A stretch of 25,246 nt of DNA, taken from positions 1-25,246 of the IMG/VR virus record IMGVR_UViG_3300031758_000528. One strand, given 5' to 3'. This DNA comes from a virus. The notes beneath the pieces are model-generated. The model was not told the DNA's origin. It saw nothing but the letters and a program-made list of their open reading frames with translations, and made no database searches. Each line of letters begins with the position of its first letter. Position 1 is the stretch's first letter. Positions 544 to 7,558 of the stretch are shown one piece after another. The position numbers and the translations under genes are program-made.

Positions 544-551
544 TATATTTG
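544..551 (+). promoter_or_regulatory. candidate -7 promoter element (TATATTTG)
   Basis: TATATTTG is an exact match to the Bacteroidota -7 consensus TAnnTTTG and lies directly after the stop codon of the preceding gene. The -33 element is weak: the nearest candidate is ATTG at 517-520, 23 bases upstream, slightly farther than the usual 19-21. If used, transcription would start near 556-558, at the 5' edge of the hairpin cluster. Confidence 0.35.
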
Positions 552-556
552 TGGTA

Positions 557-655
557 AGCAAATACGAATTTGAGGTAGAGTGCAGATTCGTGTTTGAAGG
601 TTCAAACGTAACTGGGGATTCAGGTAAACACTCTACACCTGTTTCCCCTTTTTTT
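557..655 (+). ncRNA. structured RNA with kissing-loop complementarity and intrinsic terminator
   Basis: This non-coding stretch can form three consecutive hairpins. Hairpin 1 pairs ACGAAT (564-569) with ATTCGT (586-591). Hairpin 2 pairs GTTTGA (592-597) with TCAAAC (602-607). Hairpin 3 pairs GGGGA (614-618) with TCCCC (644-648) and CAGGT (621-625) with ACCTG (637-641), separated by a 2x2 T/T internal loop and followed by seven Ts (649-655), the layout of an intrinsic terminator. The loop of hairpin 1 contains GTAGAGTG (575-582), a perfect 8-base complement of CACTCTAC (629-636) in the loop of hairpin 3. A TAnnTTTG promoter match precedes it and the replication gene starts five bases after the T run. 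It could be a free small RNA or a leader/attenuator controlling the replication gene. I do not recognise a known RNA family. Confidence 0.5.
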
Positions 656-659
656 ATTT

Positions 660-1325
660 ATGGCAAAAGACCCTGCTGTGCTATTATACACATCTGATTT
701 TCTAAGCGGAACAAGAACGATGACCAATGAAGAAGTCGGGATGTATATCATCCTGCTTTGCCTACAACATCAAAATGGTAAGCTAACCGAAAGGGATATG
801 CTAAGCATATGCAAAACGTATGTAGAGCCTGTGTTTTCTAAATTTGATTTAGTAGATGGATTTTACATTAACAAAAGGATGTATGAAGAGGCTGAAAAGC
901 GAAGCAAGTACACCGAAAGTAGAAGAAACAATGCAAGTGCTAAGCATATGCTCAAGCATATGGATAACCATATGGAAAATGAAAATGGAAATATAAATGA
1001 TAATATAAATAATAATATAAATATAAAAGAGAAAGCAAAAAAGTTTATCAAACCAGAATTATTTGAAGTTCAGAATCACTTTGAGGACATCGGGTATTTA
1101 GATGAAGCAGAAAACTTTTTTAACTATTACGAAAGCAATGGTTGGAAGGTAGGGAAAAATCCTATGAAAGATTGGAAAGCAGCATCAAGAAATTGGATTA
1201 AAAACACAAAAAACTATAAAAGAAATGATACCACTAAATCAAACTCTGACCTCTATGCTCAACGGAGAGCAGAAATGTACGAAATCGCAGCAATCATTGA
1301 CAGAGAGCGAGGCATTAGACCTTGA
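660..1325 (+). CDS. phage replication protein (YdaU/DUF1376-like, replisome organizer type)
   Basis: The N-terminus (MAKDPAVLLYTSDFLSGTRT, then MTNEEVGMYIILLCLQHQNG and KLTERDMLSICK) matches the winged-helix-like N-terminal domain of phage replication proteins related to DUF1376/YdaU; it spans about residues 1-85. A low-complexity linker (95-122, four-residue repeats KHML, KHMD, NHME, NENG, NIND, NINN, NINI) leads to a C-terminal domain of about 100 residues with aromatic and lysine-rich segments (FFNYYESNGWKVGKNPMKDW), typical of the part that contacts DNA or a helicase loader. Such proteins open the phage origin and recruit host replication enzymes. The ATG at 660 is preceded by a T-rich terminator tail and no ribosome binding site, but MAKDPA is the conserved start of the family. 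The linker DNA is a repeat array and may be the origin itself. Confidence 0.75.
   Translation: MAKDPAVLLYTSDFLSGTRTMTNEEVGMYIILLCLQHQNGKLTERDMLSICKTYVEPVFSKFDLVDGFYINKRMYEEAEKRSKYTESRRNNASAKHMLKHMDNHMENENGNINDNINNNINIKEKAKKFIKPELFEVQNHFEDIGYLDEAENFFNYYESNGWKVGKNPMKDWKAASRNWIKNTKNYKRNDTTKSNSDLYAQRRAEMYEIAAIIDRERGIRP
942..1025 (+). repeat. seven 12-bp tandem units inside the replication gene; candidate origin
   Basis: Seven in-phase 12-bp units run from 942 to 1025. CATATG recurs at 945, 957 and 969 (units aagcatatgctc, aagcatatggat, aaccatatggaa). After one transitional unit, AATATAAAT recurs at 990, 1002 and 1014. The left half therefore looks like iterons and the right half like an AT-rich unwinding element, the arrangement of the lambda origin within gene O and of other phages whose origin sits in the initiator gene. 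The array encodes the protein's low-complexity linker, so it could alternatively be selected only at protein level. Confidence 0.5.
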
Positions 1326-1974: not shown

Positions 1975-2279
1975 AAGATTTAACAGCAGGAATGATTACC
2001 AAGATAGCCATGATTGAAATGGAGATGAAAGGTTACTTTGTTTGGAGGCATAACAATTTAGCAGTACCTGGCAGAAAGTTCAATGGATTGAAAGGAGTGC
2101 CTGATATAATCGGTTTTGATAAAAAGACAGGTTTATCAGTTTTTTGCGAAGTCAAGACAAAAAATGATAAAATATCAGAATATCAAGCTAACTTTATGAC
2201 CAGAGCAAAAAAGGCAGGATGCATGGTATTCATCGCAATGGATGACAACAGCAATGTTTTGATAAAAGAATGGGAATGA
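1971..2279 (+). CDS. VRR-NUC domain nuclease
   Basis: This 102-residue protein has the compact VRR-NUC fold of the PD-(D/E)XK superfamily. The order is an N-terminal helix, GYFVWRHNN strand (residues 21-29), LKGVPDIIG with the catalytic Asp45, the CEVKTK strand with Glu60 and Lys62, then SEYQANF with Gln72 and a KKAGCMVFIA segment. All expected active-site residues (D, E-x-K, Q) are present, so it should be an active metal-dependent nuclease. Stand-alone phage VRR-NUC proteins are thought to act on branched or replication-intermediate DNA, which fits its place after two replication genes. The start overlaps the preceding stop as ATGA (1971-1974). Confidence 0.85.
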   Translation: MKDLTAGMITKIAMIEMEMKGYFVWRHNNLAVPGRKFNGLKGVPDIIGFDKKTGLSVFCEVKTKNDKISEYQANFMTRAKKAGCMVFIAMDDNSNVLIKEWE

Positions 2280-3091
2280 AAACCATAAATAGTTTATCAG
2301 GAGGAAAGACAAGTTCATATATGGCAGTTCATTATCCTGCTGACTATAACATTTTTGCATTGGTTACAATAGAAGAGCCAAAGGCTGCACCAAAAGACAA
2401 AGGTATCATTCAATATGTTTCTGATAAAATAGGCAAAGAATTTATAGCAACCGCAGAAGATGATAAAACTTTAACAGTATTGCGTGATTTAGAACAAATG
2501 TTAGGGAAAGAAATAATATGGGTTAATGGTAATTCATTTGAAGAAGTAAATCGGAAGGTTACAGGAGGTAAAGGATTACCCAATCAGATGTGGAGGTTTT
2601 GCACAACTGAGATGAAAATGCGACCCATTTTTGATTGGTGGTTTAAAAATGTAGGCGAAAAGGTAAAAATGAATATCGGCATAAGATATGATGAAATGGA
2701 AAGGGCAGAAAGGATAAGAAACACCTTTAAAGGCATTGTAGGAAAAAGAGGAACTAAAAACAAATGGGAAGAAATAGAATGGAGAGAAGCATCATTTCCT
2801 TTAGTTACCAATAAAATAATACATCCAAGAGTGGTGAGTTGGGCAAATTCAACTAATTTAACTTTCCCATCTGATTCCAATTGTGTAGGTTGTTTTTGGA
2901 AGAGCATAAACCAACTGCGTAAAAATTGGGAGGACAACCCAGAAAAAATGCAATGGTTTGCCAATCAAGAAAATGATAAAAAAAGGTGGAAGAAAGAAAT
3001 GACATATGATAAAATTTTAAACGTAGGTCTGCAAATGGATTTTAACTTTGGGGAAGGTGCAGGATGCCAGTCAGGATATTGTACTGATTAA
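2270..3091 (+). CDS. PAPS reductase-like ATP pyrophosphatase family protein
   Basis: The N-terminus carries a PP-loop (SGGKTS, residues 10-15, followed by SYMA), the ATP pyrophosphatase signature of PAPS reductase-type enzymes. Cysteines that could bind a metal or Fe-S cluster are at 111 (RFCT), 205 and 208 (CVGC) and 266 and 271 (GCQSGYC). The family activates a substrate by adenylation; members include PAPS reductases and DndC of DNA phosphorothioation. Phage-borne members are common but their substrate is mostly unknown. No Dnd partners are visible here. The start may be ATG 2270 or, more typically, ATG 2276, which overlaps the previous stop as ATGA. Neighbours are nuclease and sigma-like genes. 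A DNA or tRNA sulfur modification role is possible but not shown. Confidence 0.8.
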   Translation: MGMKTINSLSGGKTSSYMAVHYPADYNIFALVTIEEPKAAPKDKGIIQYVSDKIGKEFIATAEDDKTLTVLRDLEQMLGKEIIWVNGNSFEEVNRKVTGGKGLPNQMWRFCTTEMKMRPIFDWWFKNVGEKVKMNIGIRYDEMERAERIRNTFKGIVGKRGTKNKWEEIEWREASFPLVTNKIIHPRVVSWANSTNLTFPSDSNCVGCFWKSINQLRKNWEDNPEKMQWFANQENDKKRWKKEMTYDKILNVGLQMDFNFGEGAGCQSGYCTD

Positions 3092-6222: not shown

Positions 6223-6380
6223 CCCTCAAGGATTATTTATCTGATATCTGGTTCATCATCGTTAGGACCTTTCAGATAGTTTATTTCATGACAATAGGAA
6301 TGATAATTTTCGCTTTTGTACTCATCGCAATAGAAGCAGCATTTACATCAAAAGAACTCATTCATATATTTAGAAAATGA
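6183..6380 (+). CDS. small single-pass membrane protein
   Basis: This is a 65-residue protein with a basic N-terminus and a long hydrophobic stretch from about residue 24 to 52 (WFIIVRTFQIVYFMTIGM onward), then a short charged end. It is probably an inner-membrane protein. The start at ATG 6183 lies inside the zinc-ribbon gene; TTG 6192 is a possible alternative and no in-frame ATG follows before residue 36. The stop overlaps the start of the ParB-methylase gene. Its function is unknown; I see no features that specifically mark it as a holin. Confidence 0.5.
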   Translation: MPTLPKCKPEQKVTLKDYLSDIWFIIVRTFQIVYFMTIGMIIFAFVLIAIEAAFTSKELIHIFRK

Positions 6381-7558
6381 ACATGAATATAACAATCGCA
6401 AAAATATCAAGCATCAAGCCTAACCCGAACAATCCCAGATTGATAAAGGATGACAAGTTCAAGAAACTTGTTAAATCAATCCAAGAGTTTCCTGAGATGC
6501 TTAACCTTCGCCCTATCGTAGTTAATGCAGATAGTGTAGTCCTTGGAGGAAACATGAGGCTAAAGGCTTGTAAAGAAGCAGGACTGAAGCTCGTACCTGT
6601 AATCTATGCAGAAGATTTAACAGAAGAGCAGCAAAAGCAGTTTATCATTAAGGATAACGTTGGATTCGGAGAGTGGGATTGGGAGGACCTTGCTAACAAT
6701 TGGAATGCTGAAGAATTATCAGAATGGGGTTTAGATATTCCTGATTTCAAGGTCCAAGAGGTAGAGGTAGAGGAAGATGATTATGAAATACCAGAACATC
6801 TAAAAACAGATATTGTACTTGGAGATATATTTGAAATAGGAGAGCATCGTTTACTTTGTGGTGATTCAACAGATAGCGAACAGGTTGCAAAATTGATGAA
6901 TGGACAACTTGCTGATATGTGCCACACAGACCCTCCATATAATATTGATTATGAAGGTGGAAGCAAAAAAAGAGAGAAAATTGCTAATGATAAACTTGAA
7001 GATTTTCCTAAATTTTTATATGATGTTTATACAACAATATCAACTGGTTTAAAAAAAGGTGGTGCAATTTATGTATGGCACGCTTCATCTGAAACTCATA
7101 ATTTTATACAGCAATTTTTAGATGCTGGGTTTTTATTCAAATCTTATATAGTGTGGAATAAAAACAATAGTACATTCGGAAGGTCTGACTATCATTGGAA
7201 GCATGAACCTTGTATTTATGGTTGGTTAGATGGTGCATCTCATAAATGGCATGGAGATAGAAAGCAGACAACAGTTTGGGATATAGATAGACCATCTCGT
7301 TCTGACGAACACCCAACAATGAAACCAATACCATTGTGTAGTAAGCCTTTGGAAAACTCATCAACAATAGGTGATATCGTTTTAGATGTTTTTTTAGGTA
7401 GTGGCTCAACAATGGTTGCAGCACATCAACTTAAAAGAAAATGCTATGGCATGGAACTTGACCCAAAGTATTGCCAGGTGATAGTGGACAGAATGATAAA
7501 ACTTGACCCGACTTTAGAAGTCAAAAGGAATGGTAAAAAATATATCAAAACATCGTAG
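6377..7558 (+). CDS. ParB-like domain / DNA methyltransferase fusion
   Basis: The 393-residue protein joins two domains. Residues 4-100 are a ParB/sulfiredoxin-like domain (IKPNPNNPRL, then LRPIVVNADSVVLGGNMRLKA with the GxxR-type motif at 58-61, then FIIKDNVGFGEWDWE). Residues 145-393 are a DNA methylase: GDIFEIGEHRLLCGDST, catalytic DPPYN (185-189), HPTMKP (312-317), and SAM-binding DVFLGSGST (338-346). DPPYN preceding the SAM motif marks the beta class, which methylates adenine N6 or cytosine N4. ParB-methylase fusions just upstream of terminase genes are common in phages and probably protect phage DNA or mark packaging sites; no partner endonuclease is visible. The core from about 6900 to 7430 looks more AT-rich than its ends, which may reflect mosaic exchange. 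Confidence 0.88.
   Translation: MNMNITIAKISSIKPNPNNPRLIKDDKFKKLVKSIQEFPEMLNLRPIVVNADSVVLGGNMRLKACKEAGLKLVPVIYAEDLTEEQQKQFIIKDNVGFGEWDWEDLANNWNAEELSEWGLDIPDFKVQEVEVEEDDYEIPEHLKTDIVLGDIFEIGEHRLLCGDSTDSEQVAKLMNGQLADMCHTDPPYNIDYEGGSKKREKIANDKLEDFPKFLYDVYTTISTGLKKGGAIYVWHASSETHNFIQQFLDAGFLFKSYIVWNKNNSTFGRSDYHWKHEPCIYGWLDGASHKWHGDRKQTTVWDIDRPSRSDEHPTMKPIPLCSKPLENSSTIGDIVLDVFLGSGSTMVAAHQLKRKCYGMELDPKYCQVIVDRMIKLDPTLEVKRNGKKYIKTS

Follow-up and report, generated by a model that had tools for sequence, protein, structure and literature searches.

What is the function of the short, densely structured region that lies between a promoter box and the first codon of a replication gene in this viral DNA? 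The window considered here is the whole stretch of 25,246 nt that was analysed (IMG/VR record IMGVR_UViG_3300031758_000528, positions 1-25,246). The first-pass annotation had described three adjacent hairpins in it, with two loops able to kiss, and had suggested a small RNA, a copy-number regulator or an attenuator. Read directly and with the help of RNA folding, positions 544-660 contain in order a -7 box, hairpin 1, a small alternative hairpin, the terminator hairpin, seven U and an ATG (Table 1). The element does adjoin the start of a replication gene, as had been proposed; this gene matches Pfam PF07120 (E 3e-8), and its PHROGs matches are a primosomal protein and a DnaD-like helicase loader.

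Table 1. Positions of the element and of the gene behind it in the window.
Feature	Position	Strand	Basis
Bacteroidetes -7 promoter box TATATTTG (TAnnTTTG class)	544-551	+	Sequence; kept in related elements
Putative transcription start region	556-558	+	Deduced from the -7 box
Hairpin 1, 5' end of the RNA (arms 559-572 / 583-596)	559-596	+	RNA fold
Loop 1 GTAGAGTG, kissing sequence	575-582	+	Sequence, shuffles, covariation
Hairpin 2, GUUUGA-AGGU-UCAAAC, possible alternative fold	592-607	+	Pairing in 12 sequences
Terminator hairpin	614-648	+	RNA fold and covariation
Loop 3 CACTCTAC, kissing partner of loop 1	629-636	+	Sequence, shuffles, covariation
U-tract of the intrinsic terminator	649-655	+	Sequence; T-run beside ATG recurs in related elements
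Downstream gene, DUF1376-like N-terminal domain, primosomal / replication-initiator type	660-1325	+	Pfam, PHROGs

The promoter match that had been noted is present, but it is of the Bacteroidetes type, and a sigma-70 reading was dropped because the box fits that type instead. A TTG at 518-520, 26 nt upstream of the -7 box and thus slightly far, is a putative -33 element. Across 29 families, the stretch 22-25 nt ahead of the -7 box is enriched in TTG (15 occurrences), as should be the case for a Bacteroidetes promoter, and the distance from the box to hairpin 1 is usually 3-13 nt.

The RNA fold of 557-655 has a free energy of -32.3 kcal/mol (z = -3.9), and none of 200 shuffled sequences was equally stable. 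Hairpin 1 comprises 14 bp and a 10-nt loop, while the terminator hairpin carries an 11-nt loop and is followed by the seven T that had been recognized as its tail, in agreement with an intrinsic terminator. A simple terminator scan of the window did not pick up 614-655 because this loop is larger than the scan's 8-nt limit. The description as three adjacent hairpins stands for hairpin 1 and the terminator hairpin but not for hairpin 2: hairpin 2 and hairpin 1 use positions 592-596 in common, the latter in its lower 3' arm, and therefore cannot both be complete; hairpin 2 is an alternative that, in the window's own group of relatives, competes with the foot of hairpin 1 and not with the terminator. 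Among the 12 distinct sequences of this group, hairpin 2 has 98.6% of cells paired and one pair with double changes; for hairpin 1, of which 10 pairs were counted, the paired share is 99.2% of cells, with double changes in three stem pairs. In a second group (24 sequences), an alternative GGUUA/UAACC pairing was noticed by eye, and one-sided stem changes nearly all lead to G-U wobbles, which points to an RNA rather than a DNA structure. A UGAA/GGA internal loop flanks the kissing loop of the terminator hairpin in L186, L049, L058, L507 and L578; being present in only 5 of 29 families, it was dropped as a general conserved feature.

Loops 1 and 3 are exact 8-nt reverse complements, as claimed at the outset, and the window contains a single loop pair with this spacing, whereas none of 100 shuffles has one. 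Relatives among phage contigs were collected via the downstream protein, a DNA pattern and a genome scan. In the window's own group all eight loop pairs are kept and none is broken, two of the eight being changed on both sides; the loops read GTAGAGTG/CACTCTAC, GTAGTGTG/CACACTAC or GTAGTGAG/CTCACTAC. In the second group, five of seven loop-loop pairs are changed on both sides and none on one side, with a single unpaired cell. The controls applied to both groups were a shuffle, which ignores kinship, and a slid partner, which corrects for it, and the slid-partner score was far under the observed one in each. The search of homologous regions for compensatory changes thus found strong loop-loop covariation in two groups. 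A third group, retrieved by a pattern that did not include the loops, retains one of three complementary loop pairs at 84 of 85 unique sites, the lone exception having an unrelated 5' part. Since many related viruses alter the letters yet keep the match, the loop contact appears to be real, and as judged from these sequences it is near certain that the element exists and that its loops are paired. What was found, complementarity between two hairpin loops that co-varies, is that of an intramolecular kissing-loop RNA class, to which the predicted RNA would belong.

This pairing extends well beyond the closest relatives. When regions upstream of KDPA genes were picked only by the promoter box and a T-run, a complement of at least 7 nt was found at the loop position in 23 of 25 families, an upper figure for true elements because a handful of the longest matches represent something other than the loop pair. 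The corresponding value for cross-family pairings, in which the 5' part of one family was joined to the 3' part of another, was 21.7%, and this control is inflated because some loops are common to several families. A gene-blind detector, which requires the box, a hairpin, a complementary terminator loop and a T-run but no gene, identified 133 unique elements in the loci examined, a number that is not a frequency because some loci were retrieved by loop patterns; 114 of them lie within 30 nt of an ORF start. Plain reverse and plain complement controls gave 30 and 27 matches, with 2 and 3 at an ORF start. Together with the shuffles and the cross-family pairings, these controls rule out chance pairing. 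A gene-free scan for TTTG..GTCGCAG..CTGCGAC recovered 12 elements; each has the stems, the T-run and the -7 box and adjoins an ATG. With one representative for each of the 29 families, the spacing from loop start to loop start is 45-57 nt in 28, and an ATG follows closely after the T-run. Many elements have loops of exactly 7 nt that are fully paired, for example GTTGT-GTGCGAG-ACAAC with CGAA-CTCGCAC-TTCG in L211. A longer variant with a loop-to-loop distance of about 86 nt precedes a different early gene (MNIYKPTPLPVAYCDEQ.. / MEKINLYKPTKL..) at L212:2148+ and in the long contigs G013 (L504) and G015 (L508); its loops (TAGACCC, TGAACCC, TTAGACCC) differ yet stay complementary.

The genes behind the element are diverse. 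Sorting by simple motifs assigned about 94 of the 114 ORF-adjoining elements to replication-type genes and about 12 to HNH/NUMOD-type genes, the rest preceding other genes. The replication-type genes bear N-terminal domains of the DUF1376, Lin1244_N and HTH_36 types or others without a Pfam match, and the RNA also precedes HNH/NUMOD4 endonuclease and methyltransferase genes; a tie to one protein family was dropped, as the downstream genes bear different domains. Different gene types can follow one and the same RNA group at an identical junction, the gene being swapped exactly at the boundary of element and ATG. For the replication gene of the window and its homologues, the N-terminal domain is swapped at this junction, while several versions have a C-terminal region with ..YYESNGWKVGKNPMKDWK.. 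in common. If the replication operon begins with an extra gene (methyltransferase, HNH or small ORF), the element remains ahead of that gene. In some relatives coding sequence directly precedes the replication gene and no element is found there; in several of these the element lies one gene further upstream.

Most of 20 long contigs contain one clear element, and three loci hold two. In L084, a second element and an HNH gene lie between the genes for the large terminase and the portal; this HNH/NUMOD4 cassette (L084:7431-8002), between terminase large subunit and portal-like genes, has its own promoter and kissing-loop RNA. In L437, one element precedes an ABC/GNAT-domain gene and another the replication gene; the former gene (L437:2048-3197, 382 aa, similar to ABC-ATPases and GNAT acetyltransferases) is an insertion ahead of the replication gene and has a leader RNA of its own. 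Both elements of L528 precede HNH-type genes. The two loop pairs differ in all three loci: GTAGGAT/GTGAGAT in L084, GTAGGAT/GTACGAG in L437 and GTCGCAG/TCGGGCAGG in L528.

The carriers of the element are viruses of Bacteroidetes-type bacteria. In 396 Bacteroidota genomes, two loop-specific pattern scans gave pattern matches, yet the detector saw no true element in the loci taken from them, and no integrase (PF00589) was found in the 20 long contigs; a prophage source was dropped on these grounds. The regions around the replication genes of three isolated Bacteroidetes phages, Alistipes AS73P1, Parabacteroides PDS1 and Porphyromonas phage005b, lacked an element with the exact -7 box; these phages were reached by tblastn with a query that was partly made up beyond its first 40 residues, is not a database sequence and served as a probe only.

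What, then, might such an RNA do? The structural part of the original suggestion is upheld by covariation, occurrence in many phages and the lack of an Rfam match, and among the roles named the attenuator is favoured, none being proved. A leader is preferred because 114 of 133 elements adjoin an ORF start and the element is kept before non-homologous genes, including outside the replication operon. It is also the simplest reading because the terminator lies 100 nt past its own promoter and a few nucleotides ahead of an operon's first gene, recurs across unrelated families and moves with gene cassettes. The kissing pair would connect the earliest part of the transcript to the loop of this terminator. 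The element may accordingly be viewed, at about even confidence, as an attenuating leader that acts in cis: kissing between the 5' hairpin and the terminator loop would adjust read-through into early phage genes, so that the loop contact probably controls how much of the downstream gene is made. In such a leader, host RNA polymerase would start just ahead of hairpin 1, and as the terminator hairpin emerges its loop would form 7-8 Watson-Crick pairs with loop 1 to give a compact kissing structure in cis. Most transcripts would then stop at the U-tract, yielding a short RNA of about 100 nt, while the remainder would read through into the gene whose ATG follows a few nucleotides on. The loop contact would set termination, most likely by strengthening or timing it, and would thereby limit expression of the early replication operon or of the HNH cassettes. 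Transcription, read-through, the effect of kissing on termination, the direction of that effect and any signal are what we infer in this model. Against it, kissing between two completed hairpins may leave the strength of a terminator unchanged, no anti-terminator both conserved and mutually exclusive was established, expression of the replication genes may follow another route, and some relatives lack an element directly before the gene.

The main rival, which is unlikely but still a real prospect, is a phage small RNA, with a promoter and terminator of its own, that acts in trans on host or phage RNAs; the kissing pair would then only shape or stabilize the molecule. The anatomy of a small-RNA gene is complete here, and stable small RNAs are typically compact two-hairpin RNAs. 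Phages are known to encode small RNAs such as PreS, VpdS and OOP (review PMC12197685). An independent small-RNA gene needs no neighbouring ORF, however, and the element almost always adjoins the start of one in the same direction, even in cassettes elsewhere in the genome.

The other explanations are less likely. An improbable one is a concentration-sensing attenuator, in which the terminated RNA, proportional to the number of phage genome copies, would act in trans on leaders still being transcribed, pairing with their loop 1 before their loop 3 has been made and thereby shifting read-through of the replication operon. Loops that diversify yet remain complementary are consistent with this, as are the differing loops of all three two-element loci, which would be expected if cross-talk is avoided; these cases are only three, however, and pairing in cis should normally outcompete pairing in trans. 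A broader proposal, doubtful but somewhat easier to entertain, is a new phage leader-RNA class with mutual recognition between a 5' hairpin and the terminator on one transcript, by means of a fast-evolving private loop code; this code would prevent cross-talk among the leaders of one phage or of co-infecting phages, and the terminated RNA would report genome copy number to the replication operon. A DNA-level element, that is, a replication origin or recombination boundary with inverted repeats transcribed by happenstance, would suit the position before replication genes and the gene exchange exactly at the element/ATG junction, but the strand-specific order of promoter box, hairpins, U-tract and ATG, the wobble pairs in the stems and the copies before HNH genes among virion genes make it highly improbable. 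Least probable is a multimerizing RNA for assembly or packaging, as in phi29 pRNA, with loop 1 of one molecule binding loop 3 of another: co-varying complementary loops on one RNA would permit chains or rings, but the constant 45-57 nt spacing suits an intramolecular contact, the window has an ordinary terminase large subunit and no Rfam match was obtained.

An attenuating leader of this kind would have partial counterparts among known systems. Attenuators of the pT181 type have a structured leader before a plasmid replication gene, a kissing partner that is an antisense RNA from the opposite strand, and a known anti-terminator (PMC4878617). The phage element likewise places a structured leader carrying an intrinsic terminator ahead of a replication gene and has kissing hairpins, whose contact decides the outcome in pT181; its two loops, by contrast, lie on one RNA. 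Of 29 families, one has a -7 box for an antisense transcript in the 100 nt that follow loop 3, as against two in the control, and the candidate antisense transcript was dropped for want of a conserved box, this search having covered the -7 box only while other promoter types are possible. RNA I and RNA II of ColE1 are mutually antisense and pair completely through kissing loops of about 7 nt; the phage element has loops of similar length and full pairing, but the match is between two different hairpins of one transcript. In P1/P7-like phages, the C4 antisense RNA undergoes processing and blocks the mRNA of an antirepressor; it resembles the element as a phage leader RNA with internal complementary segments, while the element has no Rfam match at gathering score. 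In phi29 pRNA, a phage RNA of similar size with co-varying complementary loops, the loops link separate molecules in the packaging ring, whereas the element has no Rfam match above threshold and another gene context. Attenuators with kissing contacts are thus known; what appears to be new is that the partner is the terminator of the same RNA.

The impression that no known family is involved was borne out by the Rfam 15 covariance models, none of which matched the window or 20 related loci above the gathering threshold, permissive searches giving chance-level matches or none. No description of such an element was found in the literature searched, which lay outside subscription journals. It is apparently an undescribed and widespread RNA family, with well over a hundred environmental phage contigs and about 30 natural, different loop pairs. 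Should it control termination, it would represent a new way of attenuating transcription and provide Bacteroidetes with ready-made orthogonal RNA switches. The timing of replication in these phages becomes a question in its own right, and an RNA leader is here seen to persist while the gene behind it is swapped. Two further genes of the window may be mentioned. That at 2270-3091 would be an auxiliary metabolic type of gene in a phage, judging by its similarity to phosphoadenosine phosphosulfate reductase (PHROG 424, E 9e-26), and that at 6377-7558 fuses a ParB N-terminal domain to an N6/N4 DNA methylase (Pfam PF02195 and PF01555).
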